Shown here in pieces: positions 6,683 to 27,970 of a stretch of DNA of 35,346 nucleotides. Position 1 is the first letter of the stretch. Every line of letters begins with the position of its first letter. The notes under the pieces are model-generated. The model did not search any database. It saw only the letters and a list, made by a program, of their open reading frames with translations, and had not been told where the DNA came from. Made by a program: the position numbers and the translations under genes. This DNA is from an uncultured bacterium (lineage in GTDB: Bacteria > Planctomycetota > Phycisphaerae > Phycisphaerales > SM1A02): positions 1 through 35,346 of the forward strand of contig CAIWCL010000202.1 of the NCBI GenBank assembly GCA_903911205.1, given 5' to 3'.

Positions 6683-6688
6683 GAGCGG

Positions 6689-7321
6689 CTACCGCCCCTC
6701 GGGTCGCGGGAACTGCACGCTTCGTACGCCGCGCAGCCAGACCGCTGGCGAGCCATCGACCGGCTCGAACCATGCAACTAAGTCAACACTTTCGACAGGT
6801 AGCGCATCGACGCCACGATTTGCGAGCAACGAGAGCGTGAACTCGTGGCACGGACCCGCGAGCGCCAAAGACCGCGCGAGCGCAACCGATTCCGATGGAA
6901 ACGTCCATGCGCGCAATGGCGCGGCACCAGGAGCCTCTGCGGTTCCCGCTTCGCCAAGTCGATAGATCGCAAAATGAAACGAACCGTCCGCAAAGATCGG
7001 TGCCGGATGCGGCCGCGAGAACAAATACGCCGTGACCTGCAGCGAGTCGGGAAGAAGATTGCCGTCGGTGTCCGCTGGCTTCGGCGCAAACGTGATAGCG
7101 ATCGCGTTCGGCTTCGCGCCCTGTGGCGCGCTCGGCGCCTCGGTTGGCTTGGGCACAGAGCGCGCACCGTCCGATGTCGTCACGGTCGTTTGACATCCAG
7201 CGAAAAACCCGAGCGACACGCAAACCGACGTCGCCGCGGATAGACCGCGAGCGCGCGAGAAGCTCGATCGCTCTCGCAACCGTCGTTGCGTTCGCATCGA
7301 CGCATGTCCTGCGCCGCTCAC
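6689..7321 (-). CDS. Putative lipoprotein translationally coupled to the giant secretin; candidate pilotin-like protein
   Basis: N-terminal hydrophobic stretch ending in FFAGC (lipobox-like). The GTG start overlaps the gspD TGA stop (GTGA at 7318-7321). An alternative ATG start is at 7297. Confidence 0.6.
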   Translation of the reverse strand: MSGAGHASMRTQRRLRERSSFSRARGLSAATSVCVSLGFFAGCQTTVTTSDGARSVPKPTEAPSAPQGAKPNAIAITFAPKPADTDGNLLPDSLQVTAYLFSRPHPAPIFADGSFHFAIYRLGEAGTAEAPGAAPLRAWTFPSESVALARSLALAGPCHEFTLSLLANRGVDALPVESVDLVAWFEPVDGSPAVWLRGVRSVQFPRPEGR

Positions 7322-8285
7322 TTTGGCTCCTTCGAAGCATCGGTGTCTTGCGGAACAACTTCACCCGATGCATCGCTCGGCACGTCGCCCGTCGCATCCC
7401 GCGCAGCGCCACCGACGTTGATGCTTGCCCCTTGCAACTCACCCTTGCGAATCTGCTCGAGCAGTTCGGGCGGCAATGTGAGTTTGCGGATGCCTTGTTC
7501 ACTCAACGCGCTCGCGGCGTCACCGCCACCTTGCGCAGGCGATCGAACAACGTGCGGCGTCAGCACAATGAGCAACTCGGTCTTGGACGAGTTCTCTTTG
7601 AACTGACGGAACAGCGCGCCGACGAGCGGGATATCGCCGAGGAGCGGAATCTTCTTGTCGACGCGTTCGAAGCGATCACTGATCAGGCCGCCGATCACAA
7701 CAGTCTGCCCGTCTTTCACTGTCACCGTGGTGTTCGCGCGGCGTCGCGTCACGACCGGGCTGTTGAAGTTCTCCGAGATCTGCGTCGTCTGGAGCGATAG
7801 GCGCGAGATTTCCGGCTCGATTTCCATGCGGACGAAACCCTCGGGATTAATGGAGGGCGTCACGCGCAGCAGAATGCCGATGTCCTCGGGGGTCACGCTC
7901 GACTGCTGTCCCGCGCTTGAGAAACTCACCGCGTCCGGAAGACGCACGGTTTCTCCAACCTGGATGAAGCCCTCCGAGTTGTTCTCCACCATCACCGACG
8001 GATTCGAGAGAACCTGCACGCGGCTTTGCGACGCGAGTGCGTTGATGAGGAGTTCGAAGTCCTCGGCACCGATCGCGACGTTCGGCGTACCGGAGTTCGA
8101 GAAGAGTGATCCAAGCAACTGATTGCCCGTGCGTCCGCCGATTCCGGGCAGATTGCCCATGCCGGCTGCGACTGCATAGTCACCAAATCTCGCGCGGCCA
8201 AACTCAGGCCCGAGTGATTCGGCGGAGTCGAGGCTCACCTCTGCGAGCAACACTTGGATCAAGACTTGCGGCGGATCAACGTCGA
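7318..8285 (-). other. Secretin barrel domain plus short C-terminal tail of giant GspD
   Basis: DVDPPQVLIQVLLAEVSLDSAESLGPEFG to the C-terminus; canonical secretin motifs. Confidence 0.93.
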
Positions 8286-11200
8286 GCTCATCGATGATGG
8301 CCCGGACTTTCTCGAGGTACTTCGGGCTCGCGTTTACGAGCACCGTGTTCGACTTTTGGTCGCCCACGACCGTCACTTCACGCTCGAGCAACTTGGACGC
8401 ACTTGGAAGTTCTTCGGTCGAGAGCGTCTCGAGAATCTTGCGCTGATCCTCGCTCACAAACTCGTTCACGACGCGCGCAACTTCGGTCGCCGTTGCGTTC
8501 TTCAGCTTGTAGACGAACGTATCGCGGGTGTTTGCCTCCTGCGCATCGAGTTCGTTGACCACCTTCTCGACGAGGTCGAGATAGGTCGGCGTACCCGAAA
8601 CGAGCAGTGAATTCGTTCGATCATCCACTGTGATGGAGAGTTGTTGCCGATCGTCTGGAACGAGCGTGAGATCGGAGCCGAGAGTCCCGGTCGCCGGAGC
8701 CCCAAGCGCGGCATTCGCATCGCCACCGATCGCTGGTGCAGCGTCTCCATCCTCACGCGGCTTCAGCACATACAGATTGCCCGACTGCCGAAGATTGAAG
8801 AGTTCTTTCAGGATGCGCGCCATCGAATCGGCGTCGGCGTTCGCCAGCTTGAAGATACGAATGTTCTGCGATCCGCTTGTCGAACTGTCGAGGTCCTTGA
8901 TCATCTTCTCGATCAGCGTCATCGATTCACGCGGCGCCTTCACGATGATCGTGTTCGTACGAATGTCGGGCGTCAGAGAAATCGATTGCCGTGTGGCCGC
9001 CGAGATCTCCATCTCAACCTCGGTTCCTGCGCCGTCTCCACTGCCATCGATTTCACGCAAGTACTTGAGGACTGTTGCCTGCTGCTGATTGCGACCCGCG
9101 AGCGAGCCGCCCGAAAGAATGCTCTGAATGAGTCCAACGGTCTCCTGGACGTTCGCGCCTTGCAGCGGGATGTACTTGATTTCGACAACCGTCTGCGGCT
9201 TCGCGCCATCAAGCTGCGCGACAAGGCGGCGAATCGCGGCTACGTCGGCTTCAGGGCCACTCGCCACAACGGCGTTGAGCCGCGCGTCAGCAGAAACGTT
9301 GACGGTGTTGTCGCCGCGACGACGATTCTCCTCCGCGACGTACATCTCATCGAGCATGCGCACCATGTCGGCCGCCGTTGTCTTCGCGAGAATAATCACC
9401 TCGAACGGCTTATCCGTGAGTTGCTCCTTCGCGGCCTTCGCGAGGAGTTCGACAAGCCCCTTCACGATCTCAAGGTTCTCTTCACTGGATGCAACGATGA
9501 GGGAGTTCGACGCCACATCTGGTGCAACCGAGACCGCATCCGACGGCGTTTGCGAGGTACCAAGCGACGTCGCACGATCACGCATCAACTGTTGAATGCG
9601 CGGCGCAATCGTCTCCGCACGCGCCGCCGCCAGTGGAAGTACGTGCACACCAACCGCGGGATTCGACGGGATCTCCTCAAGCCGCGCGGCAATCTGGCGA
9701 ACGAGTGCCGCATCTTCAGGCCCGCCGGCAACCAAAAGTGCGTTCGTGCGCGGATCGGGCAAAACCAACGGCTTCACACGCTTCGCAACTTCCGGCGAAA
9801 GCTCTGCGAAACGACGATCGAGAATCTGCTTGATCGCTGCTGCAAGGCGTTCGATATTCGCCTTCCCAACGGGAACCACTTCAACGCCTGATTCCTCGAG
9901 CGATTCTGCAACATCAAGGTCGGCGACAAGTGATCGCACGACATCAAATGCATCCGCCCCTGCTGCGACGAGTAATTGGTTTGTGCGTTCGTCAGCCGCG
10001 ATAGTCGCGCGCTCGAGATCTGCGGTCTCGGGATTCGCGCGCTTCAAACGATCGACACGCGCATCCATCATGCGTTGCAAGATGGCGGCAAGTCGAGGCG
10101 CGCTTGCATTCTTGAGTTCGAGCGTGCGAATCTCTCGAATATCCGGCGCCACCTTCTGATCGAGGCTCTTCAAGAGCTCCTCGATCACCGCGAAACTGCG
10201 CGCACTCGTCGAAACAACCAGCGAATTGAGACGCTCGTCGGGAATCACGCGAACGCGATCTTCAGCCCGAATCGTTTTCGCGGCAAATTGCTGGTCGAAG
10301 AGTTGCACAAGAAGCGGCCCGATGCGCGACGCGCTCGCGTTTTCGAGCGGATAGAGGCGAACGAGCGAGCCGGGTGCTGCGGCTTCGGTATCGAGACTCT
10401 TCAGTAGTTCGTCGACGATTTCGAGATTCTGCGTACTGCCGACAAGGATGAGTGAATTCGTGGTTGCATCTGGCCGGATTACCAATTGCGTGAACGGGAC
10501 AAAGACATCGCTCTCGACCGCAGAAGCCTCGGTTCCTGACTCAGCGGCGCGTGCCATGCGAATACGCCCCACCTGCTTCTGCAAGGGTGAGCCTTCAGGG
10601 AGTTTCGTCGAGCCGTCGACGAGCACTGCGCGCAGCGTTTCTGCGATCGCACCCGCATCCGCGTAGCGAAGCTTCACGATGCGCGGCTCAATCCAACCAA
10701 CTGCAACTTGCGAATCGAGCCGCTCGCGCAGCACATCGACCATCGCAACAGCTTCTTCCTTACCCGCGACCACAACCGTATTCGTTCGATCATCAACCGT
10801 GATCGCAATATCTTGAGCGAGTGCTTCACCCGTCGCGCCGCCCGCCTGCGCCTTGACTTGCGTACCTTGGAGAACCCCGATCTGCTTGCCTTGCGTGAAA
10901 AGTTCACGCACCACGCGGGCGAACTGGGTTGCTTGAATGTTCGAGAGCGGAATCACACGAACGACGGCCGCGTCGGTCACCGGAAGCGAATCGAAGAGCC
11001 GCGCTACCTCTTCGAGTGCACGTACGTTGTCGGCAGTCGACGCAAGCACGAGCGAGTTACTCGTCGCATCGGCGAGAATCTTGACAGGCTTTTGAAGATC
11101 CAGGGCGATCGGCGCAGAGGCGCCGTCCGGTTGAATGCGCAATCGACGAACTTGTTCCTGCAATGCTCGCGCGAGGTCACCCTGTTTCGCGCCAGTCGCC

Positions 11201-14200
11201 GCGGGAGCCGTTGCCTGTGCAACCATCGCATTGAGCGTCGTGGCGATACTCGTGGCCGCCGCGTTCTTCATTCGAACGACGCGCACTTCTGCGTCGGCAC
11301 CCGGCGGATCCGTATCGATGGACTTGAGAAGCGAGAGAATTGTGTCGCGATCTGCAGGATTCGCGACGATCACAAGCGCGCTACGACCAGCTGCAACAGA
11401 GACTTTGAGCGGCTCAGAAATCACCTTCGACACACTGTCTGCAGGCTGCGGCCGATCAAGGCCGATCTCTTCGATGATCTTCTTCGCCGACTCAGGCGCA
11501 ACATTGATGAGATCAATGATGAAGATTCCCTTCGACGCGTCCGGGGCGAGCGCATCCATTTGCTCGACGAGCGTGCGAATCTCTTCAAAGATTGGCCCGG
11601 TTGACGCGACGACGAGTCCGTTCGAGACAGTGTCGATCTGAATCGAGAGTGGCAGATTCGCTTGGCGCGCGCGCTGTGCAAACGCCTCACGAATCGCAGC
11701 GGCGATCCGCGGCGCGGGTGCACTCTTCAAACGAAGAAGGTGCACTTGAAGACCCTGCTCCGTTGCTTGCTGTTGCAATGCTTCCGCGATCGCGGCGATC
11801 TGTGCGAAGTCTTCCTCCGACGCGCGGACGATCAGCGCGTTTGACGCAGCATCTCCGACGATACGCAATCCGCGATCACGTCCTGCTGCACGACCCGGGC
11901 CGTATACGCGCTCAATCGAGCGGGCAAGCTGCTCGGGATTTCCGTAGCGCACCTCGATCAAACGCGGAGGTGGAAGTTGAGCAAAGTCGGGCTGATCGAG
12001 TTGCGCGATGATCGCTTCGATCTTGCGCATGTTTGCTGGGCTCGCGGCAACGACGAGGTTGTTCGAAAACTCGTCGGCACTGGCATTCACCTGCTCGTCG
12101 AGTTTCTGCTGCACCACGATCGGCTGCACAGGCTCTCCGCGCGGTGCAGGCTGCGGAGCAATGGGAGCCGGCTTGAACGCTTCGTTGATCGCGGAGGCAA
12201 CGGTTCGCGCGTCTGCGTGTCGAAGACCAACCACGCGCAGTTGTCGCGAGCCGTCGTACTGCTCGTTGTCCAACTTCGCGACAAGCTCGCGAATTGCAGG
12301 CCACTCGCTCTCTTCTGCAGAGATCACGAGCGAATTTGTTCCCTCGTCACCAACAATGCGAACCGACTTCTTCGCTGGCGAATCCGTATCGAGCGCCCCG
12401 CGGCCGTAGAAGTAGCCAAGTGCTTCCTGTACACCCCGCGCCTTCGCTGCCTTTAGCGCGACAAACTCGGTGATTCGCTTCGACACAGGTGGAATGTCGA
12501 TTGCATCAATGACGGCTTCGATGCGTTCAAATTGCTCAGGCGTTGCCGCGACGAGCAGGCGATTCTCCGCGGGATCTGCTTCGATGCGCGGCGCTTCCTC
12601 CGTCGCATTGGGCTTCACGTCGCCCACGAGTCGTTCAAGCGTGAGTGCAACTTCAGACGCGTTTGCAGCCTTCAACGGCACAATGCGATATTCAATTGTG
12701 GATCGCGTTGGTGATTCTTCGAGTTGCGAAAGCAACTTCTCAATCACCGGAAAGCTCTCCACGGTGCCCGTCACGACAAGCGCGTTCGAACGCCGATCCG
12801 CGACAATGCGCGCGTTGACTTGTACAGCCGCGGCCGATGGGTCAACCTTCACCGCGACGCCTTGCGTGCGTCCAGTCGCGTCGAGTTGCAACGACTGCGT
12901 CAGCACCCGCACCGCGTCTTCTGCTTTGGCATTGCGCAACGCGAAGGTGCGAATGAGTGTTTCGTCAGCGCTCGAGGGCGCATCGAGTCGTTCAACAAGC
13001 GCGCGCACCTGTTCGAATTGTCCGCCCGGCGCACTCACGAGAAGCGCGTTGGTTCGCACATCTGGCGTGATGGCGACGCCTTGAGCGCCGCCGCGCCCGC
13101 GAAACTGCTCCGCAACCATTCGCGCGATGTCGACGGCCCGACCCTTCTTCAGCACGATGATGTCGCTCTGACGATCGCCGCCCGATTGTGGCTGATCGAG
13201 GCGCGCAACAAGATCGCGCACCGTGCCGACTTCATCTTTGGTTCCCGCAACGAGCAAAGCGCCGCCCGACGCACTGGGCACGATGGTCGCGCTCGCGCCG
13301 CCGCCGGCCGCCCCCGCAGCACGATCGTCGATGAACTGACGCAGCGTCTGTGCGAGTTCCGCAGGCGCGGCGAACTCAACAGGAATCACTGCGGTTTCAC
13401 GATCTTCCGCGATGAGCGTCTTGGCGAGACTCTCAAGGAGCGACTTCACTTCCGCATGCTGTTGATCGGTGGCGCGAATGACAAGTTGGCGAGCTTTCGG
13501 GACCGTGATCACACGTGATCCACTTGCGGCCGACTGTGATTCCCACGGCCGCTGCGGACGCTCTCCCAGCGTGTCGCGCACCAACGCAGCAACCTGCTCA
13601 AGTTCACCCGCTTTCGCTTCATACATGCGAACGGTTCGCGCTTCGCCTTCAGTTGGTGCCACATCGAGTGTTGCGACGATCTCGCCAACAAGCGCGAAGC
13701 GATCGCCGCGTCCGATGACGATGAGCGCGTTGCGCTTCTCATCTGCGCGCACCGTCGCGCTGTCTTCTGCATTCGCGCCCGCCATTTCTGCGAGCATCTG
13801 TTCGACGGTGCGGGCAAGTTCACCTGCACGCGCGAATCGCAGCGTGAAAACCTTGAATTCATAACCCGCGGCAACTTCAGGGGCATCGAAGCCCTTCACC
13901 AATTCCTCGATCTCGGCAAAGTCTTGATCGTTTGCCGCGACGAAGATCACTGCGCTCCGCGGATCACCAACAACCGATGCCGCGCGCTGTCCACGCGCGC
14001 GTCCACCGCTTGCGACCTGCGCGCGTTCATCGAGCAACTTTTGAATGGCCTGCGCCACCCTCTGTGCATCAGCGCGCTCAAGACGAATCTGTCGAATCGG
14101 ATACTGCCGAGCACCCGCACGATCAATCTCGCGCACGATGCCTCGAATTTCGTCGAGGACCTCCGCGTCGGCGCGCACAAGCAGGACTCCTGCCGCGTCA

Positions 14201-17200
14201 TCCGCAACAACCTGCGTACGCTCGCGACGCGCGTTGTCGGTACCAATCACAAGGCGATCGATCGTCGTGGAAACCTCCGACGGCTTCGCAAACGCGAGCG
14301 CAATCGTTTCGAGTGGCGCGCGGCCACTTGTCCCCGGCTCATCCAATCGCGCAACGATGCGCTCTACTTCCGGCGCGAGTTCAGTGCCACCCCAGACGAC
14401 GAGCGTGTTCGTGCGTTCGTCCGCTGCGAATTCGGGTGTCGAGACCACGATGCCCTGCTGTGAAAGCGATCGTCCGCGCGAGGCGAAGATTGACGTCAGC
14501 GTTCGCGCCAGTTCTGTTGCCTTCGCATGCTTGAGCGGGAGAAGGCGCATTTCTGGCGCAATCGCGCGCTCTTCACGGTCGGCGTACGCGACGAATCGAT
14601 CGGTGAACGCGATCGCCTGCGGCGAGCCAACAACCGTAATTGCGTTCGCGGCCTTCTCGACGATCACGCGAAGTTTCGACGGATCAAAGGGAACTTCACT
14701 CTGCGGTTCGCCCGCCATGTCACCGGCAAGCGTCACCGCGAGCGCCCTCAGGCGAGTACCACCGGCTTGCGTTGTGACCGCACGGAGCGCTTCCGCAACG
14801 CGATCGGCGCCGGCGCTCTGCAACACGTAGCTCTTCACGACGACGGTCTCGGTCTGCTGACTTCGCGCGAGCGTTGCCACCAGTTGGCCGATTGACTCGA
14901 AATCACGATCCGTTGCCACGATGAGGAGCGAGCGCGTTTCTGGATCAGGAACAATCGCAACACGTTTCGCAAGATCACCTGCGGCGCCGCCTGCCGGTGT
15001 CATTCGCGCCACTGCACCAACGACCACCGACGCAAGCGCAACTGGATCACTTGACGCGGGAAGTTTGATCGCGCGGACGCGCGAACCCTCGCCGGGCAGT
15101 GCCTTCGACGCCTGCTCAACCAACTTCATCGCGCGTTCGATTTCGCGCTGCGAACCAAGCAACACCAGCGAATTCGTATCACGATCGACCGCAACAGTGA
15201 CTCCACCGGAGCCTTCGTCCCCTTTGGAGGACACGGCTGTTTTGGGCGCAACTTCAGCCGCTGGAGGTACCACGTTTCCCGCTGGAGCAACCTGCGCAAA
15301 TGCCAGCGCGACAAACGCAAATCGCGCAGGAAGCACCGCCGGCCACGTGGGGGCCGCGACCGGAGTTGCTGGCACCGTCTGGAGCGGAAAGAGACTCGAT
15401 TGTCCATTCTGCGGAGCAGCTTGTCCCGCGGGTGCCTTCGTGTCTGGCTCGTACCGCTTCAGCAGTTCTTCGACGGAAATCACTTCGACGTCTGCATCCG
15501 ATGACTCCATAAGTCGTCGAAGCAAACGCGCCATATCTTCCGCGTCGCCCTTCGACGGATCAAGCGGAACCGAGCGCAACGTGCGCGTGCCCGCGACCGT
15601 TGCTCCATCGAGCTTCGACACGATCTCTTCAATTGTGGCGAACTGCTTCTCCGTCGCACGTACAAGCAAACTGTTGCTCGCCGCATTGGTGCGAATGACT
15701 GGCGGTGTTTCCGTACCGTCATCCGTTTCAAAGAGATCAATCAGGCTCTTCGCGATTTCACCGGCATCCGCATTGCGAAGTGCCAAGACGCGCACCACGC
15801 GATCCGTCTCCCGGCCAGGCGCCACGTCAAGCTGCTGAAGCATCTCTTCTGCCGCATCCAACGCACCGGGCGTTGCACTGATCACAACGGCATTCAGCCG
15901 CTCGTCGGCAATCACACGAAGTGAAGGCTCTGTCGCGGCGACCGCGCCCGAGGGCCGCGTGCGCTCGACACGCCTCGCTTCGCCGGCGAGCAACTGCTCG
16001 ACAAGCGGAGCCATCTGCACAGCGCGCGCGTTCTTCAGGAACACCGTACGAACGCGCGCAGCATCGCGCGGTCCACGCACGTCAATGGTGCGCACGATGG
16101 CATCGACTTCGTCCAGTTGCGCTGGATCCGCTGCAACGACGAGCGCATTGCTCGTTGGCTCTGCAGCGATAGACGGCTTCCGCACGTTCGGCTGCGACGC
16201 GACGCGCGCGGCCAACGCTTGCTCGACTGCTTTCGCAACATCAGGCGCACTCGCTTGCGAGAGTGGATAGACGCGAATCTCTGCCGGACGATCACCGTCA
16301 CGCGCTCGATCGAGTTCATCGATCACCTTGGAGGCAATCGGCATCAGATCGGTCGGAGCCGTGACCACGATTCGTGCGTTGAGCGTGTCCGCAACAAACT
16401 TTGGTTCCACAATCGGCGCGCCCGCTTTTGCAGCGGCAACCAGCTGCGCCGGCCATCGCGAACGGTCGAGAAGCACTGCATTCAGCGCAGAAACAACGAC
16501 ATCCGGTGCGACGTGCTTGAGTTGGACGACACGAAAGTCAGCGTCAGGTGCAGCGAACGCCTTCTGATCAAGTTCGGCGAGCAGAGCACGCGCCTTTTCC
16601 GCGCCGTCCGCTGTACCTACAACGACGATGGTTCCCGACGCAGGGAGCGCCGAGAGTTCCACTCGGGACAATCCCGATGAATTGGTGGCATCAAGAATGC
16701 GACGCGCTTCATCCACGAGCCCCGCCACGGCCGCACGCGATGGCGTGAAGACCGACCACGAACGCGCGGTGGCATCGCCTTCACGATCAAGCTCTTTGAT
16801 CAGACCTTCCGCAACGCTCATGATGCGTGCAGCACCCGAGACGATCAGCGAATTCGTACGTGGATCAGCCTCCACACGGACCGGCGGCGTTGAGTCCGCC
16901 TGGCCGCGATTTCGTCGCATGCGCTCGAGAACGATGCGCGGGTCGGTCTCTTGTTGGTCACTCAAAAGCCGTTGAACCAGTGGTGCAACGCGCGACGCAT
17001 CGGCGTTCGTGAGCGTGAATGTCTTCGCATCGACCGAGTCAAGCGCGGGACGTTCATCGAGCGGTGCAACAAGTTTTTCAGCTTCATCCAGATCACTCGC
17101 GGGTCCTACGAGCAGCAGCGCGTTCGCGCCCGCCGCGGGAATCACCTTCACGGCGAGCAGTTCACGCGTCACCGGATTGGTCGCCGCCGCGAGTGCCTGT

Positions 17201-20200
17201 GAGAGGCTGGTCGAAACCTGCGTCGCATCGGCATACGAAAGCGGTCGAACGCGCACAACAGGTTCTGTTGAGCCCGCTGAAGCGCTTCCGTCATCGAGTT
17301 GCCGCACGAGCTCTTCCACAACGGGAATCAACGCGTCCGGTGCACTGACGATCAACGTATTCGAGCGGCGATCTGCCGCAACATCGAGGACGCGCCCGGG
17401 CTTTCCAGCGAGCGTCGGCTCGATCTGGGCAAGTCGCCCTTCCAGTGCCGATCGAACGAGCGGCGCGAGATTCTCCGCCTTCGCCACCTTGAGTTTGAAG
17501 ACACGCAATGTTGTCGACGGCTGTGCAGCACCTTCGACGCCACGGACAACCGCCTCGACCTTCGCAAAGACACTGGGCGAACCACTCACGACGAGTGTCT
17601 TCGAAACCGGCTCAACGCTCACGATGGTGCCCGTACCCTCAGGCCCCAACTGTCCCGCTTGCGCGAGATCGCGCACGGTCTTTGCAAGCGTTTCTACATT
17701 CGCATCGGACACGCGCCATGTGCGAATCTCTGCGTCGGGCATCGCCTGCGCGCGATCGAGTTGCTTGACGAGTTCTTCGAAACCTGCCATCCGCGCGACA
17801 GGCGCATCGACGATGAGCGAGTTCGTTTGCGCGTCCGCGCGCACAACAACTTCGCGTGGCTGTTGGAGTTCGGGACGAGCGCGACCGCGCGGATCGACCG
17901 GAACCGGCGGCGGCGGATACATCTCATCGATCGTCTTTGCGAGCTCGGCCGCACGAGCAACCTTCAGCGAGAAGATGCGAATCTCACGGTCACTCGCCGA
18001 CTGACGCGAGGAACCGTTCAGCGTCTCAACAACCTGCTGAATTTCCGGGAGAAGATCGGGATGTGCCGCAACGATCAACGCATTCGTTTGCGGTTCCGCC
18101 GTGATTTGCACGGGCTTCGCGCCCTTTTCATCAGGCGAACGCTGCGCGTACTGCGCATTGAGCGCAGAGGCGAGCGTGGCAGCATCCGCGGTGCGCAATT
18201 GAAGAATGCGCATCGGCGGCGTTGCGCCAACCGGAACGTCAATGTTGCGCACAATCGCAGAAAGGAGTTCTTGCTGACGCGCGTCGGCAGCAACGAGCAA
18301 CGAATTCGTTCGCTCCAGAATCTCAATCGCAGGCTCACGTGCGAACCCGGCAGCCTGGCCGAGCCGACTCGAAGCAAGGCCTTCAATCGACGCTTTCGCA
18401 TCTGCGGCCTTCACATGGGAAAGCGGTACGACGCGCACATCTGCGCCTGGCGACGTTGCCGCAAGAATTTGCCGACAGGCGTCGGCAAAACGTGACAGCG
18501 GCTCTTCTTCACCGCTCGCGATGATCGTCCCGTTCGCAGTATCGATCTCCGTCTCAATGACGGGCACCACCGGATTCGTGACCAGCGTGGTCGGTGCAGA
18601 ATCGGTGGCACTCGGCTGCGCGGGTGTCGTCGTGGTCGATGTGGCGGATGTCGTGCCGGGTGTTGTGGCGGAATTTGCCGCGGGCGTTGCGCCCGGCATA
18701 CCGCCAACCGATGGAGAAGCCGCTTGTCCAGCCTCGAGCCCTGCGAGCTTCAGTGCCTTCGCAACGAGTTGCGCTGGATCCGACGCACCCGCGTCGACCA
18801 CGCGCACACCGCGCTTCGCGGGCACCGCTTGCAATTGCCTCAGCAACTGCTCAGCCTTCTCAAAGGTTGTTGCATCGCCTGCCACAATGAGCGTACGACT
18901 CACTGGTTCTGGTTGAACGAGCACTTCAACCGGCTTCGCTCCATCAACCCCGGGCTTCGAAAGCATGCCACGTGCCGCGAGATCGCGGAGACTTGTCGCG
19001 ATGCGTTCGATATCGCCCTTTTCAACGCGGTATGTTCGCAACTCCGCTTGCGGAGGAAGCGGAGTGCGATCGAGTGTTGCGACGAGCTCTTCGAAACTCG
19101 CACGGCGCTCAGCGGGCGCCTCCACGATCAGCGAATTCGTTGTCGTGTCGGCAGTGACGAAGACTTCCTTCTGCTTTTGAAGATGTGGCAGCGGACGACC
19201 GCGCGCATCGAGCGGCACGGGCGGCGGCGGGTACAGCCGATCAAGGGCGGCCGCAAGTTCTGCGGCGCGCGCACTCTTGAGTGCCACGACGAACGTCTCG
19301 CGTGCTGGACCAGTTCCCGCATCGCCTGCGCGATTCATGTCATCGACAAGTGCGCGAATCTCTTCGAAAACGGCAGGGTGGGCTGTGACAACAAGCGTGT
19401 TGGTTGTTGCATCGCTCTCAATGCGCACTGGCTGCGCCCGACGCTGTTCAGGAGCGCGCGTGTCGTACCGTTGCGTCAGCATCGTGGCGACTTGCGACGC
19501 ATCACCGCCGCGCAATTGCAGAAGACGAAGCGGCGGTAGCGCTTCTGGCGCTGCAACGTCGAGATCACGAATGAAACTCTCAATCAGCGCAATTTGCGGC
19601 ACTTCTCCGACGATGTACAGCGCGTTGGTCGCTTCGATCACGCGAATCTCGGCGGCCGGAACCGTACGCGATGGCTCCACTGGCGATGCCGATGCGAGAA
19701 GCGGCGTGAGCTTCGCTGCAACTTCCGCCGCGACGGCGGCGCGCATGGGGATGATCTTGCCTGTTCGCGGCGGTGGAAGGAGAAGTCGCGCTTGCGCGAC
19801 CGCATTTTCGTAGAGCGCGACCGCATCGCGTCGACCGCTCACGAGCAACGCGCCACTGGATGCATCGACCTCGACGCTCGGCCGTTCGAGTTCCGCGCCA
19901 CCGCCGAGTGCGAGTTGGGTGTAGATCGAGTTGGCGCGTGCAACCAAGGCCTGCGCATCGACGCCAGGAACCGGCATGGCACGGAACGCGAATGCGTCAC
20001 GCGTTGGGCGGTCAAGACTCGCTGCAAGCGACTGCATTTCTGCGACCTGCTCTGGAGTTCCACTCACCAGAATCGCGCGCGTCGCATCAAGTGGCTCGAT
20101 CGCAGGCGCCGTAAAGTCTGTGCCATCCCGAGGATCGAGTACTTGCTTCGCGAGTTCGCGTAACTGCGGCGCGATGGTCGAAGGCTGTGCGTTCGCGACC

Positions 20201-21903
20201 GCGATTTGTCGCGTTTCGCGTTCGACAGCGCGCATGCCGTCGACTTGGTTCAATAGCTCGGTGAAACGGGCAATCGACTGCGCGCTTCCGATGAGGACGA
20301 GTTCGCGACTCATGGCATCGAGTTCGATGCGCAGGCTGCGCGCAGCGTCGGCCGCGGGCGTCTGTTGTTCATAGAGTTCGCGCGCCCGAGCCACCGACTG
20401 CTCCGCATCCTTACTCGCGACGCGCATCAATCGCACCTGACGTTCGACGTTCGCGGGGCGGTCGAGTGTTTCGACAATCGCGCGAATGCCAGCGATATCG
20501 GTGGAGTCGCCCGCAACGAGAATTGTGCGTCCGTCCGGGCCCGCAACGAGTGAAATCTCATCCTGTTGGCGCTTCGAAAGCAGCGACTTCGCTGCCGCGA
20601 GAATCGCTTCTGGCGATGCGCTCTCGAGTTCAAGTGCGGCGACGGCACGATCGCCACGAAGACGATCTCGCACGGTCGCCGAAGGTTTCGCAGGCTGCTT
20701 CGACGGGTCAAACCCCTCCATCTCCGCGATGAAGCGTTCGGCGTCATCAATAGAACCAAGGTCGCCCACAATTGTGACGCGCTCCGCCTCAGGAAGCGCG
20801 ACCACCGTCGGCTTCTTTTCAGCGGGATAGCCAGCGAACAACTGCTCGAGCCGCTCTTTTGCAACGGGCGCTTTCACCTTCGAGACCGAGAAGGTCTTCA
20901 TGCCGCGGCCACCCGCAGCGGTTGGTTCTGCTCCACCCGCAACAGGTACATCAAGAAGCTCGATGGTCTGCTTCAACTGATCGATCTTCGCACGCGAACC
21001 ACGCGCCACAATCGCGTTGGTGCGATCGTCCGCTGCAACCACAAGGCCCGCGACGCGATTTTCTTCGATCTTTGTGCGCTTTCCGTCCGCAGGATTCACC
21101 ACGTACTCAACGACGCGCTCGCCCATCAATGCTTGCAAACTCTTCAGCAGATCTGCAGATCGCGCGTGTCGAATCGGGATGAACTCAATGAGATTCTCCA
21201 CGTCTTTGCGATCGATTTCGTCGATGATGCGCTGCAATCGCCTCACCTGCGCCGCGGTTTCGACGAGCAAAATGCTGTTCTGCTGTTCAAGCGCGGTGAC
21301 GGATCCGTAGGTCGCAACAAGGTTCTTCAGTTGCTCTGCGACCGGCTTAGCTTGCGCGTTAAGAAGCGGCATGACGACCGTGACGATCGTGTCATCCGTC
21401 ACTTGCGATGGAACCGTGCCGATGAAGGTCGGCACGTTCTCGCGCTTCATGTCGTCGAGTTTCTGAAGGAACATTCGTCCTCCCTCGACGCGCAGCATGC
21501 AGTTCTGCGTTTGGAGGAGAACGTTCAGCGTTTGGATCGCTTCGTCGAGCGTGTACTCCTTCGGATAGATGTAGTCGACGGTGCCCTTCGGAACGTCAAT
21601 CTCGCGCACGATCGGGTAACCAGTCGTGCGACTGAAGTAGTCGAGAATCTGGTCGTAGGTCTGGCCCTTGAAATTGAAGCGAAGCCGAGTGCCGGATGCC
21701 TGCGATGCGCCCGTCGCAACCTGTTCTGTGGAGGCGTTGGAAGAAGCGGCCGGCGAGGGCGTGGGGGTACCCGACTGCGGGCTCGCTTGCGGGGCTGCCG
21801 CCTGGACCAACGCATCTTGTGCAGCGGTCATCGGGGCGGCGAGTACCGCGGCCACCACGGCGGGTGCCATCGCTCCGGCGTTGCGCGCGCTTCGCTTCTT
21901 CAT
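7318..21903 (-). CDS. gspD: Giant GspD-like secretin with N0/STN-like domain, about 52 tandem secretin-N domains and a C-terminal secretin domain (about 4861 aa)
   Basis: The open frame runs 7318-22035. Start preferred at MKKRSARNAGAMAPAVVAAVLAAPMTAAQ (ATG at 21903, signal peptide, upstream GAAGGAACG SD-like). The C-terminus has VLSNPSVMVENNSEGFIQVGETVRLP...VTRRRANTTVTVKDGQTVVIGGLISDR...KIPLLGDIPLVGALFR...TELLIVLTPHVV, typical of secretins. Confidence 0.95.
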   Translation of the reverse strand: MKKRSARNAGAMAPAVVAAVLAAPMTAAQDALVQAAAPQASPQSGTPTPSPAASSNASTEQVATGASQASGTRLRFNFKGQTYDQILDYFSRTTGYPIVREIDVPKGTVDYIYPKEYTLDEAIQTLNVLLQTQNCMLRVEGGRMFLQKLDDMKRENVPTFIGTVPSQVTDDTIVTVVMPLLNAQAKPVAEQLKNLVATYGSVTALEQQNSILLVETAAQVRRLQRIIDEIDRKDVENLIEFIPIRHARSADLLKSLQALMGERVVEYVVNPADGKRTKIEENRVAGLVVAADDRTNAIVARGSRAKIDQLKQTIELLDVPVAGGAEPTAAGGRGMKTFSVSKVKAPVAKERLEQLFAGYPAEKKPTVVALPEAERVTIVGDLGSIDDAERFIAEMEGFDPSKQPAKPSATVRDRLRGDRAVAALELESASPEAILAAAKSLLSKRQQDEISLVAGPDGRTILVAGDSTDIAGIRAIVETLDRPANVERQVRLMRVASKDAEQSVARARELYEQQTPAADAARSLRIELDAMSRELVLIGSAQSIARFTELLNQVDGMRAVERETRQIAVANAQPSTIAPQLRELAKQVLDPRDGTDFTAPAIEPLDATRAILVSGTPEQVAEMQSLAASLDRPTRDAFAFRAMPVPGVDAQALVARANSIYTQLALGGGAELERPSVEVDASSGALLVSGRRDAVALYENAVAQARLLLPPPRTGKIIPMRAAVAAEVAAKLTPLLASASPVEPSRTVPAAEIRVIEATNALYIVGEVPQIALIESFIRDLDVAAPEALPPLRLLQLRGGDASQVATMLTQRYDTRAPEQRRAQPVRIESDATTNTLVVTAHPAVFEEIRALVDDMNRAGDAGTGPARETFVVALKSARAAELAAALDRLYPPPPVPLDARGRPLPHLQKQKEVFVTADTTTNSLIVEAPAERRASFEELVATLDRTPLPPQAELRTYRVEKGDIERIATSLRDLAARGMLSKPGVDGAKPVEVLVQPEPVSRTLIVAGDATTFEKAEQLLRQLQAVPAKRGVRVVDAGASDPAQLVAKALKLAGLEAGQAASPSVGGMPGATPAANSATTPGTTSATSTTTTPAQPSATDSAPTTLVTNPVVPVIETEIDTANGTIIASGEEEPLSRFADACRQILAATSPGADVRVVPLSHVKAADAKASIEGLASSRLGQAAGFAREPAIEILERTNSLLVAADARQQELLSAIVRNIDVPVGATPPMRILQLRTADAATLASALNAQYAQRSPDEKGAKPVQITAEPQTNALIVAAHPDLLPEIQQVVETLNGSSRQSASDREIRIFSLKVARAAELAKTIDEMYPPPPVPVDPRGRARPELQQPREVVVRADAQTNSLIVDAPVARMAGFEELVKQLDRAQAMPDAEIRTWRVSDANVETLAKTVRDLAQAGQLGPEGTGTIVSVEPVSKTLVVSGSPSVFAKVEAVVRGVEGAAQPSTTLRVFKLKVAKAENLAPLVRSALEGRLAQIEPTLAGKPGRVLDVAADRRSNTLIVSAPDALIPVVEELVRQLDDGSASAGSTEPVVRVRPLSYADATQVSTSLSQALAAATNPVTRELLAVKVIPAAGANALLLVGPASDLDEAEKLVAPLDERPALDSVDAKTFTLTNADASRVAPLVQRLLSDQQETDPRIVLERMRRNRGQADSTPPVRVEADPRTNSLIVSGAARIMSVAEGLIKELDREGDATARSWSVFTPSRAAVAGLVDEARRILDATNSSGLSRVELSALPASGTIVVVGTADGAEKARALLAELDQKAFAAPDADFRVVQLKHVAPDVVVSALNAVLLDRSRWPAQLVAAAKAGAPIVEPKFVADTLNARIVVTAPTDLMPIASKVIDELDRARDGDRPAEIRVYPLSQASAPDVAKAVEQALAARVASQPNVRKPSIAAEPTSNALVVAADPAQLDEVDAIVRTIDVRGPRDAARVRTVFLKNARAVQMAPLVEQLLAGEARRVERTRPSGAVAATEPSLRVIADERLNAVVISATPGALDAAEEMLQQLDVAPGRETDRVVRVLALRNADAGEIAKSLIDLFETDDGTETPPVIRTNAASNSLLVRATEKQFATIEEIVSKLDGATVAGTRTLRSVPLDPSKGDAEDMARLLRRLMESSDADVEVISVEELLKRYEPDTKAPAGQAAPQNGQSSLFPLQTVPATPVAAPTWPAVLPARFAFVALAFAQVAPAGNVVPPAAEVAPKTAVSSKGDEGSGGVTVAVDRDTNSLVLLGSQREIERAMKLVEQASKALPGEGSRVRAIKLPASSDPVALASVVVGAVARMTPAGGAAGDLAKRVAIVPDPETRSLLIVATDRDFESIGQLVATLARSQQTETVVVKSYVLQSAGADRVAEALRAVTTQAGGTRLRALAVTLAGDMAGEPQSEVPFDPSKLRVIVEKAANAITVVGSPQAIAFTDRFVAYADREERAIAPEMRLLPLKHAKATELARTLTSIFASRGRSLSQQGIVVSTPEFAADERTNTLVVWGGTELAPEVERIVARLDEPGTSGRAPLETIALAFAKPSEVSTTIDRLVIGTDNARRERTQVVADDAAGVLLVRADAEVLDEIRGIVREIDRAGARQYPIRQIRLERADAQRVAQAIQKLLDERAQVASGGRARGQRAASVVGDPRSAVIFVAANDQDFAEIEELVKGFDAPEVAAGYEFKVFTLRFARAGELARTVEQMLAEMAGANAEDSATVRADEKRNALIVIGRGDRFALVGEIVATLDVAPTEGEARTVRMYEAKAGELEQVAALVRDTLGERPQRPWESQSAASGSRVITVPKARQLVIRATDQQHAEVKSLLESLAKTLIAEDRETAVIPVEFAAPAELAQTLRQFIDDRAAGAAGGGASATIVPSASGGALLVAGTKDEVGTVRDLVARLDQPQSGGDRQSDIIVLKKGRAVDIARMVAEQFRGRGGAQGVAITPDVRTNALLVSAPGGQFEQVRALVERLDAPSSADETLIRTFALRNAKAEDAVRVLTQSLQLDATGRTQGVAVKVDPSAAAVQVNARIVADRRSNALVVTGTVESFPVIEKLLSQLEESPTRSTIEYRIVPLKAANASEVALTLERLVGDVKPNATEEAPRIEADPAENRLLVAATPEQFERIEAVIDAIDIPPVSKRITEFVALKAAKARGVQEALGYFYGRGALDTDSPAKKSVRIVGDEGTNSLVISAEESEWPAIRELVAKLDNEQYDGSRQLRVVGLRHADARTVASAINEAFKPAPIAPQPAPRGEPVQPIVVQQKLDEQVNASADEFSNNLVVAASPANMRKIEAIIAQLDQPDFAQLPPPRLIEVRYGNPEQLARSIERVYGPGRAAGRDRGLRIVGDAASNALIVRASEEDFAQIAAIAEALQQQATEQGLQVHLLRLKSAPAPRIAAAIREAFAQRARQANLPLSIQIDTVSNGLVVASTGPIFEEIRTLVEQMDALAPDASKGIFIIDLINVAPESAKKIIEEIGLDRPQPADSVSKVISEPLKVSVAAGRSALVIVANPADRDTILSLLKSIDTDPPGADAEVRVVRMKNAAATSIATTLNAMVAQATAPAATGAKQGDLARALQEQVRRLRIQPDGASAPIALDLQKPVKILADATSNSLVLASTADNVRALEEVARLFDSLPVTDAAVVRVIPLSNIQATQFARVVRELFTQGKQIGVLQGTQVKAQAGGATGEALAQDIAITVDDRTNTVVVAGKEEAVAMVDVLRERLDSQVAVGWIEPRIVKLRYADAGAIAETLRAVLVDGSTKLPEGSPLQKQVGRIRMARAAESGTEASAVESDVFVPFTQLVIRPDATTNSLILVGSTQNLEIVDELLKSLDTEAAAPGSLVRLYPLENASASRIGPLLVQLFDQQFAAKTIRAEDRVRVIPDERLNSLVVSTSARSFAVIEELLKSLDQKVAPDIREIRTLELKNASAPRLAAILQRMMDARVDRLKRANPETADLERATIAADERTNQLLVAAGADAFDVVRSLVADLDVAESLEESGVEVVPVGKANIERLAAAIKQILDRRFAELSPEVAKRVKPLVLPDPRTNALLVAGGPEDAALVRQIAARLEEIPSNPAVGVHVLPLAAARAETIAPRIQQLMRDRATSLGTSQTPSDAVSVAPDVASNSLIVASSEENLEIVKGLVELLAKAAKEQLTDKPFEVIILAKTTAADMVRMLDEMYVAEENRRRGDNTVNVSADARLNAVVASGPEADVAAIRRLVAQLDGAKPQTVVEIKYIPLQGANVQETVGLIQSILSGGSLAGRNQQQATVLKYLREIDGSGDGAGTEVEMEISAATRQSISLTPDIRTNTIIVKAPRESMTLIEKMIKDLDSSTSGSQNIRIFKLANADADSMARILKELFNLRQSGNLYVLKPREDGDAAPAIGGDANAALGAPATGTLGSDLTLVPDDRQQLSITVDDRTNSLLVSGTPTYLDLVEKVVNELDAQEANTRDTFVYKLKNATATEVARVVNEFVSEDQRKILETLSTEELPSASKLLEREVTVVGDQKSNTVLVNASPKYLEKVRAIIDELDVDPPQVLIQVLLAEVSLDSAESLGPEFGRARFGDYAVAAGMGNLPGIGGRTGNQLLGSLFSNSGTPNVAIGAEDFELLINALASQSRVQVLSNPSVMVENNSEGFIQVGETVRLPDAVSFSSAGQQSSVTPEDIGILLRVTPSINPEGFVRMEIEPEISRLSLQTTQISENFNSPVVTRRRANTTVTVKDGQTVVIGGLISDRFERVDKKIPLLGDIPLVGALFRQFKENSSKTELLIVLTPHVVRSPAQGGGDAASALSEQGIRKLTLPPELLEQIRKGELQGASINVGGAARDATGDVPSDASGEVVPQDTDASKEPK
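8285..21387 (-). repeat. Protein-level tandem array of about 52 secretin-N (NolW-like) domains, mean period about 84 aa (about 252 bp)
   Basis: A recurring pattern, (P/K/R)L(k/r)xAxAxxxAxxL...D.RTN.L(I/V)V.a....i..L(v)..LD, can be followed by eye through the whole span, e.g. ADERTNTLVVWG, VDDRTNTVVVAG, PDIRTNTIIVKA, VDDRTNSLLVSG. Confidence 0.9.
21455..21695 (-). other. N0/STN-like domain of giant GspD
   Basis: RLRFNFKGQTYDQILDYFSRTTGYPIVREIDVPKGTVDYIYPKEYTLDEAIQTLNVLLQTQNCMLRVEGGRMFLQKL resembles the N-terminal domain of GspD-like secretins. Confidence 0.75.
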
Positions 21904-21973
21904 GCCATCGTTCCTTCGGCAGACGCCAAACCACCCGGACCCGCCGAGTCGCGAGCACGAGAATTGAGTTGAG

Positions 21974-23092
21974 TTACCCCGCGGTCGAAGACCGTTGGGT
22001 GAGATTGCTTCCGACTTGCACGCGGCAGGTTCCACCGGGCAGTTCGAAGACTCCGAAATCGTACTCGACGCGACGGAAAATGAGCTCGCCGATAGCGCTT
22101 CCTGGCTGCAACGTAAGTTGAGATCCTGTCGGAAGATGACGAAGCCAGACTTCCGGTCCTGACGGGCCTTCGACGATGCCCGTCACGAGCCACTCGCCGT
22201 ACGGAAATCCGCTGTCCGGTGCCGGCACTGGAAGCGTGCCCGCTGGGGAGACCGAATTCGCTCCCGGCGATGGCTGTGTTGGAGTCGTCGCGACTGTTAC
22301 CGGAGCTGTCGGCGCTGGCGGAGGTGGGATGCGGAAAGGGTTCGATTCAAAGAGCGCACGGTACCGCTCAGCGGTTGCAAGTGCTTGTGGATCCGGGACT
22401 AGCGGAGCATTGGCCGACTTCCCAGGAAGGAAGAGGGTCGTCAGCTTGAGGGTCATTCGAAGCGCCGATCCATCAGCAGTTGGGTCGAGTCGAATGGACT
22501 CGATCCGCTTCGTCCAAGGTTCGGCTTGGATCCGGTAGATCAGCGGATAGATCTGGCTGGCGCGACCACTGGCGACGACAGAGCCTTCGACCTCGACGAA
22601 GTCGGCCTCGTCCCGAAGCGATCGCTCCTCCGCGCGACGGAACTCGCGTTTCGCGGGCGTCGGCTTGAGCAGCGAACGGCCAGTTGTGACCGAGAACTCC
22701 GTGAATCCCAGTTCCTCGCACACACGGTTGAGGCGCCGCCGAACCTCGCTGTCGACAACTTCCAGTGAAGGACCGAGGGTCCGATTGGCCACCGCCTGCG
22801 TCCGACGTTCAAGTTCCGGGCGACCATCACGCGCTTTGCGAGCTTGCGTCAAGACGCCGACGTAGGTCTCGATCTGCGACTCCGCCTCCACGCGCTCATT
22901 CGAAAGTCGCCGCTCGCCGACGAGGTAGCCCACCGACAGCGCCGCGAGCGCAGCCACCGCAGCGACGATCCAGAGACCGCGCCGAGCCAAGCGTGCGCGG
23001 AGCGAATGACGTTGGCGTGAGCTGCTCGGCAACGACGAGGATGCGGATGACGCGGTGGTTGACGCGATCGTCCCGGAGTTCGAAGTCTTCAT
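21974..23092 (-). CDS. PilO/GspM-like inner-membrane protein with C-terminal PilP/GspC-like HR domain (apparent fusion)
   Basis: One N-terminal TM (GLWIVAAVAALAALSVGYLVG), coiled coil, ferredoxin-like region, Pro-rich linker, then WLVTGIVEGPSGPEVWLRHLPTGSQLTLQPGSAIGELIFRRVEYDFGVFELPGGTCRVQVGSNL. ATGA overlap with the upstream gene. Confidence 0.65.
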   Translation of the reverse strand: MKTSNSGTIASTTASSASSSLPSSSRQRHSLRARLARRGLWIVAAVAALAALSVGYLVGERRLSNERVEAESQIETYVGVLTQARKARDGRPELERRTQAVANRTLGPSLEVVDSEVRRRLNRVCEELGFTEFSVTTGRSLLKPTPAKREFRRAEERSLRDEADFVEVEGSVVASGRASQIYPLIYRIQAEPWTKRIESIRLDPTADGSALRMTLKLTTLFLPGKSANAPLVPDPQALATAERYRALFESNPFRIPPPPAPTAPVTVATTPTQPSPGANSVSPAGTLPVPAPDSGFPYGEWLVTGIVEGPSGPEVWLRHLPTGSQLTLQPGSAIGELIFRRVEYDFGVFELPGGTCRVQVGSNLTQRSSTAG

Positions 23093-24870
23093 TGCTTCGC
23101 CTCCGTGTTGGAAGGTTGACTTGGTGATCGCTCGGCTGCCGAGTCACGCGCCCCGTCCGTTGGCGGCTTCGCGGCATTGTTCGCGCCTGCAGTTGAAGCA
23201 GGCTCCTTCGCCGCCGATGGGGCGAGCTCTGTCGTTCGCAACGTGTATGCGAACGGCGCTGGCAAGCGGCGACCACCGCGCGCATCAGCGCCCGTCGACC
23301 CGAGCGTGTAGCCCTTCTCGCGAACGAGCGCATCACGCAAGGCATCGGCGACGCCGCGATCTTTCGCTTCACCATCGACCACAAAGCGCAATTCAGGCGT
23401 CGCGTCAAACGACCCCGTCTTGCTGTACTCAATCTCCGTTCCTGAAAGCTGCGCGGTCATTCCGTCGAGCACCACAACATTCGGATCAGGCGCGAAACGC
23501 CGAAGAATGTCGAGGTGCGCAAGCCAATCCGGAGAGAGCTGCCCGTGCGCCTCAATGTGCTTCAAGCGAAGCTCGTCGCGCTTCATTCGACGAAGTTCTG
23601 GAAGCGCGTTGCGCGCTTTCGACTCAAGATCATCACGGCGATTCTCTAGGGCGCGCCACTCGCGTGTACCGAGCGTCCAACCGGCAAGCGCCGCAACAAC
23701 CACGACACCGGCGACAAGAAGAATGCGTTGCCGAGTGCGCGCAGCGACATCAATCAATCCGGTCGGCGCGAGAAAATCGATGGCGGAACCATCGCGTCGC
23801 AACGCAAGTTCGTCTTCCAAGAGCGCACCTGCGAGCGGCCAGCACGACGAGAGAAAGGTCTCGCGCGCAGATGCATCGATGCTCGCGTACGTGATCAACG
23901 GATGAGACTCAAGCCGCTGCACCGACGCGCCCGTCAACCGCGCCAATTCCGGCGAAAGTGCCTCAAACACTCCACTCGAACCAAGAAACAGCACGCGTGA
24001 CAACGCGATGTTTGCGCCAGAATCCGCTGATTTCAACGATGCCAACAGCATGCGCACCGCGGGCAACGCTTCTTCACGCGCCGCGAGCGGTCCGCGTCCC
24101 TCTGCAGGAATCGAGAGTCCTCGCGAGGAAAGTAGCGATCCATCTCGTGCGACGATGAGTTCGACCGAATCGACGGTCGTATCGACCACCAAGACAAGTC
24201 CGCGCCGAAGTTCTGGCGCCGATCGAAGCAGCGCAAGCGTGCCGAGTGCGCGAACGGTTGCACGCGCCACAGGAACTTGGACCGCGGCACGCATTGCGGC
24301 GACGGCCGCCGCAGGCACTGCCGCGACAATTGCGCGCGCGCCATCGGAACTCCGGGACTCGATTTGAAAATCACCGAGTGTTTCGACACCTTCCGTTGCC
24401 GTTTCTCGTGCGATGGCCAGCCGCGCCATACTCCGCAACTCTGCCTCATCATCACTCAAAAGTTCGGTGGTCGCGACAACCGCAATCTCCCGCGGAACCA
24501 AGAGCACCGCGGCGCTCGATCCCGATGCGACGAAATCACTTGAAACAGACTCGCCTGGAACTACAGCACTTGCGGTTGAGGAACTTGCGTTTGACGTACT
24601 TGAGACCGAAGAACCTGAGTCCGAAGAACCTGAGTCCGAAGAACCTGAGTCCGAAGAACCTGACCCGCGCTCGAACGTCGCCAGCACTTCGAGTTGCGCG
24701 CCCATGCGACGACACTCAAGAACGCGAACGCACTCCGCCACACGCTCAACCGCGAGCGAACGCGCCTCTCTCCGCATGGAAGACTTCCCTCCGCGCGCAC
24801 CCACGTTGGTCGTGAGCGCGTGAGAGGTGTCGAGAGAACTCGAAGAGGAAGTGTCGCTGAGTGAAGCCAT
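23089..24870 (-). CDS. GspL-like protein: PilM-like actin-fold region fused to PilN-like TM/periplasmic region
   Basis: GLVLVVDTTVDSVELIVARDGSLLSSRGLSIP, PLAGALL and IDFLAPTG (PilM/GspL-like), then a single TM ILLVAGVVVVAALAGWTLG and coiled coil (PilN-like). An alternative start at 24777 has a better SD (GGAGGGAAG). Confidence 0.7.
   Translation of the reverse strand: MASLSDTSSSSSLDTSHALTTNVGARGGKSSMRREARSLAVERVAECVRVLECRRMGAQLEVLATFERGSGSSDSGSSDSGSSDSGSSVSSTSNASSSTASAVVPGESVSSDFVASGSSAAVLLVPREIAVVATTELLSDDEAELRSMARLAIARETATEGVETLGDFQIESRSSDGARAIVAAVPAAAVAAMRAAVQVPVARATVRALGTLALLRSAPELRRGLVLVVDTTVDSVELIVARDGSLLSSRGLSIPAEGRGPLAAREEALPAVRMLLASLKSADSGANIALSRVLFLGSSGVFEALSPELARLTGASVQRLESHPLITYASIDASARETFLSSCWPLAGALLEDELALRRDGSAIDFLAPTGLIDVAARTRQRILLVAGVVVVAALAGWTLGTREWRALENRRDDLESKARNALPELRRMKRDELRLKHIEAHGQLSPDWLAHLDILRRFAPDPNVVVLDGMTAQLSGTEIEYSKTGSFDATPELRFVVDGEAKDRGVADALRDALVREKGYTLGSTGADARGGRRLPAPFAYTLRTTELAPSAAKEPASTAGANNAAKPPTDGARDSAAERSPSQPSNTEAKQ
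24602..24661 (-). repeat. 15-bp in-frame tandem repeat in the GspL-like gene encoding (SSDSG)n
   Basis: gaacctgagtccgaa occurs three times exactly (24611-24655) with partial flanking copies; the translation is SGSSDSGSSDSGSSDSGSS. Confidence 0.95.
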
Positions 24871-24985: not shown

Positions 24986-25069
24986 CGAAGCACCTATCAC
25001 TTCGAAGCACCTCTTACTTCGAAGTACCTCTTACTTCGAGGCACCTCTTACTTCGAGGCGCCCGCACTT
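24986..25069. repeat. 17-bp tandem repeat at the gspK 3' end / gspK-gspL intergenic region, 4 clear units plus a degenerate fifth
   Basis: cgaagcacctatcactt / cgaagcacctcttactt / cgaagtacctcttactt / cgaggcacctcttactt / cgaggcgcccgcactt in direct succession from 24986. Confidence 0.95.
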
Positions 25070-27440: not shown

Positions 27441-27970
27441 GGCGAGCCCCCCTCGCGCCTCGTGTCTTCGGCTGCGATCACACGGTCGATGGTTGTGATG
27501 ATTGTCCCGCCTCCATCGCCGCCAACATCGCGTGCGCGAACGGTGGCGCGCGCCAAACGAACACCATCACCTGCACCGATGGGCAGGATTTCGAGTGAGA
27601 CATCAAGTTCGGGATCTCGATGCGCGCCCGCTGAACCCTCTTCGTCATCGACGCCGCCATCGAAATCACCAATGGCAACGAGCCCGGCGTCGAGTTCTGC
27701 CAGTCGCGATTGCGCAAGATCCATCGCGCGAGCGCGAAGATCCGTTCGCCGCGCACCATCGATGGCGCTCCGCATTGCGCCGAGTACGAGGATCGCGCCG
27801 CCGACGAAAAGCGCCATCGCCAACAAGAGTTCGAGGAGTACACCACCACGGCGATTGCGCGCGTATTCCTTCGCAGCTCTGGTCACCGATTCTCCCGCAC
27901 GCCGCACCACACGTACCCGCTTCGGAAGCGTCGTCGACGATGTGATGGCCGACGCAGGATCCTCGCGCAT
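27437..27970 (-). CDS. gspI: GspI-like minor pseudopilin
   Basis: Divergent prepilin motif RRGGVLLELLLAMALFVGGAILVLGA; operon position. The start may be internal (for example GTG near 27886). Confidence 0.65.
   Translation of the reverse strand: MREDPASAITSSTTLPKRVRVVRRAGESVTRAAKEYARNRRGGVLLELLLAMALFVGGAILVLGAMRSAIDGARRTDLRARAMDLAQSRLAELDAGLVAIGDFDGGVDDEEGSAGAHRDPELDVSLEILPIGAGDGVRLARATVRARDVGGDGGGTIITTIDRVIAAEDTRREGGSP

Follow-up and report, generated by a model that had tools for sequence, protein, structure and literature searches.

A GspD-type secretin with 52 secretin-N domains in a T2SS operon of Phycisphaerales bacteria

The stretch of DNA analyzed here (the window) takes in the whole of contig C202 (35 kb; 35,346 nucleotides), one of 393 contigs in a 3.87-Mb MAG, whose relatives with names are MAGs of the Phycisphaerae/Phycisphaerales (Planctomycetota), chiefly from lakes and the sea. 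The flanks of the window (1-7318 and 31851-35346) are ordinary and encode flagellar FlgH, IGPS, a CAAX protease, a tRNA synthetase, a semialdehyde dehydrogenase, tRNA-Gln, a TM2/GYF protein and a Clp ATPase. Between the flanks, on the reverse strand, lies a T2SS operon that is closed by a giant secretin gene, and this gene order is conserved across the family and partly across the order.

The frame of the giant gene (7318-22035, reverse strand) runs for 4,905 codons without a stop. An ATG at 21903, preceded by the Shine-Dalgarno sequence AAGGA, is the likely start, and the ORF together with Pfam and NCBIfam matches describes a giant GspD-type secretin of 4,861 aa and 516 kDa (7318..21903). A preliminary description of the DNA had placed a protein of about 4,860 aa at these positions, with a signal peptide and N0 domain at its start, an ordinary secretin domain at its end and about 52 secretin-N copies between them, and this outline was confirmed throughout. 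The signal peptide MKKRSARNAGAMAPAVVAAVLAAPMTAAQ (21817..21903) was recognized by eye from the sequence. It is followed by an N0 domain of the GspD type (21436..21687; profile against PDB GspD, E 2e-24), and a profile of the N-terminal region aligned with N0-N1-N2 of the GspD structures 5wq7 and 5wq8 at E 1e-23 to 1e-24. The GspD N0 model PF21305 matched 29 of 45 orthologues. At the other end is a single secretin domain (PF00263, Pfam; 7543..8040, aa 4666-4831, E 1.5e-47), the predicted outer-membrane barrel.

The intervening array (8275..21384, aa 218-4587) consists of 52 secretin-N domains, as delimited with Pfam, a custom HMM, AF2 and Foldseek. The number recovered by Pfam, the scan proposed in the preliminary description, was 39 to 48 depending on the cut-off: 39 stretches totaling 1391 bits at the strict cut-off, and 48 matches at E<=1e-3 in a genome-scale scan. 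The custom HMM, which was trained on the giant array and its orthologues, found 52 domains at iE<0.01 that tile the region contiguously, leaving no unassigned stretch longer than 21 aa, and it gave zero matches against 20 shuffles of the giant protein. Domains 3 (21 bits), 12 (7 bits) and 25 (21 bits) are weak, and the earlier statement that all copies keep a D.RTN.L(I/V)V core goes a little too far. Linkers between the domains have a median length of 6 aa (10-90% range 4-8), and over a set of 1,049 junctions 97% of the linkers are <=10 aa, again with a median of 6 aa. Mean identity among the N domains within one giant protein is 26%, and neither adjacent domains nor domains at a fixed offset are clearly more similar to one another, as higher-order repeat units would be. 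Two of the domains hold long disordered inserts, and long loops are conserved at fixed positions in domains 25, 38, 42, 44, 50 and 51. The insert of domain 25, about 85 aa in the alpha1-beta2 loop (15196..15450), includes a short basic-hydrophobic A-x-A segment (e.g., PARFAFVALAFAQ) that resembles a signal peptide and is kept across most of the order; it may be a relic, a membrane contact or a processing site. In a sister clade, this insert is where the gene is naturally divided.

Modeling with AF2, which the preliminary description had also suggested, supports an N-domain fold for the array. Eight consecutive mid-array domains were predicted as eight beta-alpha-beta-beta-alpha units with a mean pLDDT of 77, and the Foldseek top matches of this model were ExeD/GspD/PulD, with the Deinococcus DR_0774 secretin (PDB 8co1) as the second-best match. 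A sequence-profile search with the same region likewise placed GspD on top (E 1e-22). The pTM of the model was 0.28, which makes the domain orientations uncertain, and a tube geometry taken from the model was rejected for that reason.

By all testable features except domain number, the giant protein is of the GspD kind. GspD is its best NCBIfam model (equivalog TIGR02517, 1287.7 bits against a cut-off of 351), the whole-protein score being inflated by the repeats and the best stretch covering model positions 132-594 of 600. The Pfam scan found no AMIN domain, a feature of PilQ membership, and no pilotin or S-domain was identified for the giant secretin. Where the GspD norm is N0 to N3, the protein has N0 plus 52 N domains; with this atypical count it is a GspD variant and still a member.

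The genes ahead of the giant gene, all on the reverse strand, complete a T2SS operon. Adjacent to the giant gene is a PilO/GspM-like inner-membrane protein of 372 aa (21974..23092), for which AF2 predicted a transmembrane helix, a PilO-like domain, a disordered linker and a C-terminal beta domain. Foldseek matched this model to PilO and PilP of 3jc8, PilO of 2rjz and the GspC HR domain of 3oss, with modest E-values; the match to 3oss_C had a probability of 1.00, a TMt of 0.73 and 2.4 A over 63 columns at a Foldseek E of 0.04. T2SSB was matched in one orthologue (E 0.0024), and a phmmer search of the 372-aa protein against the PDB gave only antibody-like matches to about residues 276-341, which were judged spurious. 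The GspC HR/PilP-like domain of this protein is likely the partner of N0, as predicted from the models. Upstream are a GspL/PilM-like inner-membrane protein (23089..24870), assigned from its conserved position and from PilM_2, which matched 2 of 7 orthologues (E 1.6e-4 at best), and a GspK-like minor pseudopilin (25048..26712), tentatively assigned from its position and an N-terminal hydrophobic segment, with no Pfam match; a GspK-like gene adjoins the giant gene conservedly in relatives. The remaining genes encode a GspJ-like pseudopilin (26709..27440; N_methyl PF07963, E 3e-7), a putative GspI-like pseudopilin assigned from position (27437..27970), a GspH-like pseudopilin (27976..28725; PF07963, weak), the major pseudopilin GspG (28791..29438; PF08334, E 7e-25; TIGR01710 above cut-off) and the platform protein GspF of the giant system (29561..30799; PF00482, E 3e-54; co-occurrence). 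No GspE is encoded in the operon, and six full-length T2SSE ATPases are encoded elsewhere in the genome.

The giant secretin and the operon GspF, counted at >=42% identity and with the ambiguous, fragmented genome G006 excluded, occurred together in 37 related genomes and were both missing from 22, with 1 and 0 discordant genomes (Fisher p 1.6e-15, a value that overstates independence because the genomes are related). The giant T2SS is missing from several relatives with small genomes. As judged from gene content, it is a dedicated system that is gained or lost as a unit with its own GspF. The genome of the window has three further secretins of ordinary length, with open frames of 1,016, 816 and 1,016 aa. 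One locus (L044, contig C214) is a second, conventional T2SS with GspK and a secretin of four N domains, the secretin of another (L045, C183) is 777 aa long and lies close to a PilM-like gene, and C387 carries the fourth secretin of the genome. Since a conventional T2SS and further secretins are present, the giant system is an extra machine.

An obvious concern with a gene of this size in a MAG of 393 contigs is that repeat expansion, misassembly or a pseudogene has produced an artefact of assembly or gene modeling. Giant arrays were present in 38 of 61 related genomes, including the one-contig genomes G024 and G046, and direct reading of 20-odd genomes found single-ORF giants of 3,568-5,086 aa with 37-56 N domains, well over the 10 domains for which the preliminary description had proposed a search (the collection scan was seeded by a 5-row alignment of closer sequences). 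Within the genus, all 52 domains have the domain at the same position as their reciprocal best match (73-81% identity); for most of the family's other genera, 47-50 of the 52 do so, at 46-49% identity. Domain order is also shared with other families of the class (z about 5-11 for most), with agreement being weak in G182 (z 2.2) and absent in G250 and G537. Omega over the array was 0.035 for the window versus L022, 0.060 versus L021 and 0.058 for L037 versus L038, and dN/dS was low for each measurable domain and uniform along the array. TRF detected no domain-length DNA repeats in the giant gene. Recurrence in many independent genomes, omega values of 0.035-0.06 and the TRF result rule out an assembly or repeat artefact with near certainty, and the earlier argument for long-term selection over slippage or misassembly is upheld by collinear orthologues. 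The giant array is, on this comparative evidence, old, fixed in register and constrained. Some public MAGs with the gene (L060, L064 and L108) bear the title 'Kuenenia stuttgartiensis' or 'Phycisphaera mikurensis'; their genes group with Phycisphaerales MAGs and the labels look loose.

Beyond what the preliminary description had recognized, the array is class-wide, is tied to a dedicated T2SS and varies by blocks, and certain lineages have it divided among two or three genes. L030 has 4 additional domains behind domain 7. L036 has 37 domains and is missing counterparts of 5-6, 9-19, 21 and 28, and L037-L039, from a different family, have 37 domains and are missing much of 7-21; two families are thus both at 37 domains with mostly the same region (~7-21) gone. 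In families of the class that are more distant, single ORFs hold 31-40 domains (G062, G068, G098, G103, G154, G155, G172 and G182), and secretins outside the class in a sample of the phylum are mostly about 600-1,500 aa. One genome (G060) has two different giant arrays (L041 and L042), one with 37 N domains and running off the contig end and the other with 45; the pair may reflect a second system or contamination. In another class, G537 has a 3,265-aa ORF (L139-L140) whose N0 is accompanied by 16 to 25 N domains, most of them weak; a secretin domain was not detected in this ORF, which is adjoined by GspF/GspG homologues.

Splitting of the array takes several forms. In one nested clade of f1 MAGs (L082, L084 and L100), two adjacent ORFs have 17-18 and 24 N domains. 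The break falls within domain 25, and the second of the two has a signal-peptide-like N-terminus of its own; in L100 the ORFs overlap at the junction by ATGA. Loci of families f17 and f19 have two adjacent genes with 23-34 and 11-16 domains, and the f21 locus has three adjacent genes with 7, 12 and 14 domains (split-array loci of f17, f19 and f21: L145-L154, L159-L160 and L137-L138). Each of these genes has a signal-peptide-like start, the secretin domain is in the last gene only, the domain totals are 33-45 per locus, and linkage to a T2SS operon of the window type is weak. Some split giants may be frameshifts introduced by assembly. L043 (two-contig genome) resembles such a case because its later ORFs lack signal peptides, whereas the splits in f17/f19/f21 and in the L082 clade have proper new N-termini. 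A possible origin of the signal-peptide-like stretch in domain 25 of the window, as a remnant of the two-gene arrangement seen in f17/f19/f21, was not supported and was dropped because the junction in those families is 11-16 domains from the C-terminal end, versus 28 here. Since the totals stay within 33-45 despite splitting, total array length seems to be selected above the single-polypeptide state. Array length seems to matter more than having one polypeptide, and the split loci suggest, from gene structure, that array segments can assemble from separate chains.

What, then, does such an array do? The reading we consider probable is that the giant protein is the GspD of a dedicated T2SS with an N-domain tube that is roughly tenfold longer and bridges a wide periplasm. 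A 12-15-mer would form stacked rings as in PulD, with N0 docked on the HR domain beside the inner membrane and the secretin barrel in the outer membrane, and the GspG pseudopilus would push folded exoproteins through or within the tube. At the base of the PulCD secretin, N0 is bound by the HR domain, and PulD with HR and four N rings extends outward by about 20 nm (PMC6882859). The six rings of Thermus PilQ are reported to let it span a wide periplasm (PMC5745081). N domains form rings in every solved secretin, and the short, uniform linkers argue for stacking. From about 20 nm for PulD with four N rings and 35 nm for Thermus PilQ with six, each ring would add about 3-4 nm, so a tube of 52 rings, or 53 if N0 is counted, would be about 150-200 nm long, a rough estimate; ring stacking and physical length are inferred by analogy. 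The HR domain is tethered near the inner membrane by a 72-residue helix and about 60 disordered residues, which would keep the N0 end within a few tens of nm of that membrane. The extended vestibule or long conduit of the preliminary description is the reading with the best support: the domains have the N fold and are joined by short rigid linkers, an N0 precedes them, and the operon supplies an HR-domain partner. The rings, length and gating of such a conduit are inferred.

An alternative is that ring formation is confined to N0 and the final few N domains, while the rest of the array is a flexible tether, like beads on a string, that keeps the outer-membrane ring attached to the inner-membrane platform over a variable distance. 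The AF2 model without confident inter-domain orientation and the long disordered inserts in two domains are compatible with a tether. Linkers that are short and uniform (97% at <=10 aa), even selection along the array and the retained positional identity of each domain argue against one, since swapped domains and drifting linkers should be tolerable in a plain spacer, and we consider a tether unlikely. It is also conceivable that the long lumen is a chamber or scaffold for storage, folding or gating of large substrates, and that it lies along or between membranes. The conserved long loops at domains 25, 38, 42, 44, 50 and 51 may be internal constrictions, and the ordinary-length secretins in the genome indicate that not every site requires a long bridge. 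N0 with its HR partner and the secretin domain are at opposite ends, however, which implies an inner-membrane end and an outer-membrane end, and the tolerated loss of blocks (52 to 37, in L036 and L037) suits a change in length more than loss of a chamber, making this reading quite unlikely.

A different question is whether the giant secretin serves protein secretion at all or is instead a PilQ-like secretin for a pilus or DNA uptake. The inner-membrane partners are PilO/PilP/PilM-like, and T2SS and T4P machines are closely related. Given a GspG with a T2SSG domain and a score above the cut-off of the GspG equivalog model, the full pseudopilin set, the GspD-type N0, GspD as the best NCBIfam model and the lack of AMIN in the Pfam scan, we regard a PilQ-like role as distinctly improbable.

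If the giant secretin is a long trans-envelope tube, the periplasm it crosses would have to be wide at least locally, as at the membrane invaginations of planctomycetes. In these bacteria the periplasm can be hugely enlarged and convoluted at sites of inner-membrane invagination, whereas in other places the contacts are close (PMC5394234). A uniformly wide periplasm as the sole cause is disfavored, since the same genome encodes three secretins of ordinary length; a cell with wide and narrow envelope zones would, as a hypothesis, explain the coexistence of giant and ordinary secretins. Counting against a tube for a wide periplasm, the described Phycisphaeraceae lack crateriform structures (PMC8882080). 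Domain number would set tube length, which would change through loss or gain of domain blocks. A more specific proposal, which is plausible but which we hold only tentatively, is that a tube of 33-56 rings and about 150-200 nm has evolved its length as a ruler for a periplasm that is very wide in places, and that it is built from one to three polypeptides joined end to end, in one clade via an N domain split between two proteins.

Usual secretins have four to six stacked ring domains; about four N rings are typical, and one to six are known. GspD/PulD/ExeD (TIGR02517; PDB 5wq7, 5wq8, 6hcg and 6i1x) resemble the giant protein in the signal peptide, N0, N-domain fold, C-terminal secretin domain and T2SS operon, but have N1-N3 in 600-700 aa compared with about 52 N domains in 4,861 aa, and the giant system differs further in that the partner HR domain is fused to a PilO/GspM-like protein. 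Thermus thermophilus PilQ likewise has a lengthened N-domain stack, which is reported to cross a wide periplasm, but it is a 757-aa, 35-nm type IV pilus/competence secretin of six rings, about ninefold fewer, and its N3-N4 linker is 17 aa and flexible (PMC5745081), in contrast to the short linkers of the giant array. Deinococcus DR_0774 (PDB 8co1) is multi-ring like the giant, with about 740 residues and few N rings. The phylum also has planctomycete secretins of about 1,200-1,500 aa, whose N domains outnumber those of proteobacterial GspD; the giants of this class are three to four times as long. No published giant or many-N-domain secretin was found in the open-access literature, and the giant secretin is apparently an extreme, undescribed GspD variant.

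The giant secretin escapes annotation pipelines as well as 'giant gene' counts that set a limit of 15 kb (as in PMC8882080). The block gains and losses, together with the one-, two- and three-gene forms, provide natural length variants for relating N-domain number to envelope reach. If the proposed architecture is true, a 52-ring secretin would be the longest secretion conduit by far, and protein transport over the enlarged planctomycete periplasm would become directly testable by tomography.
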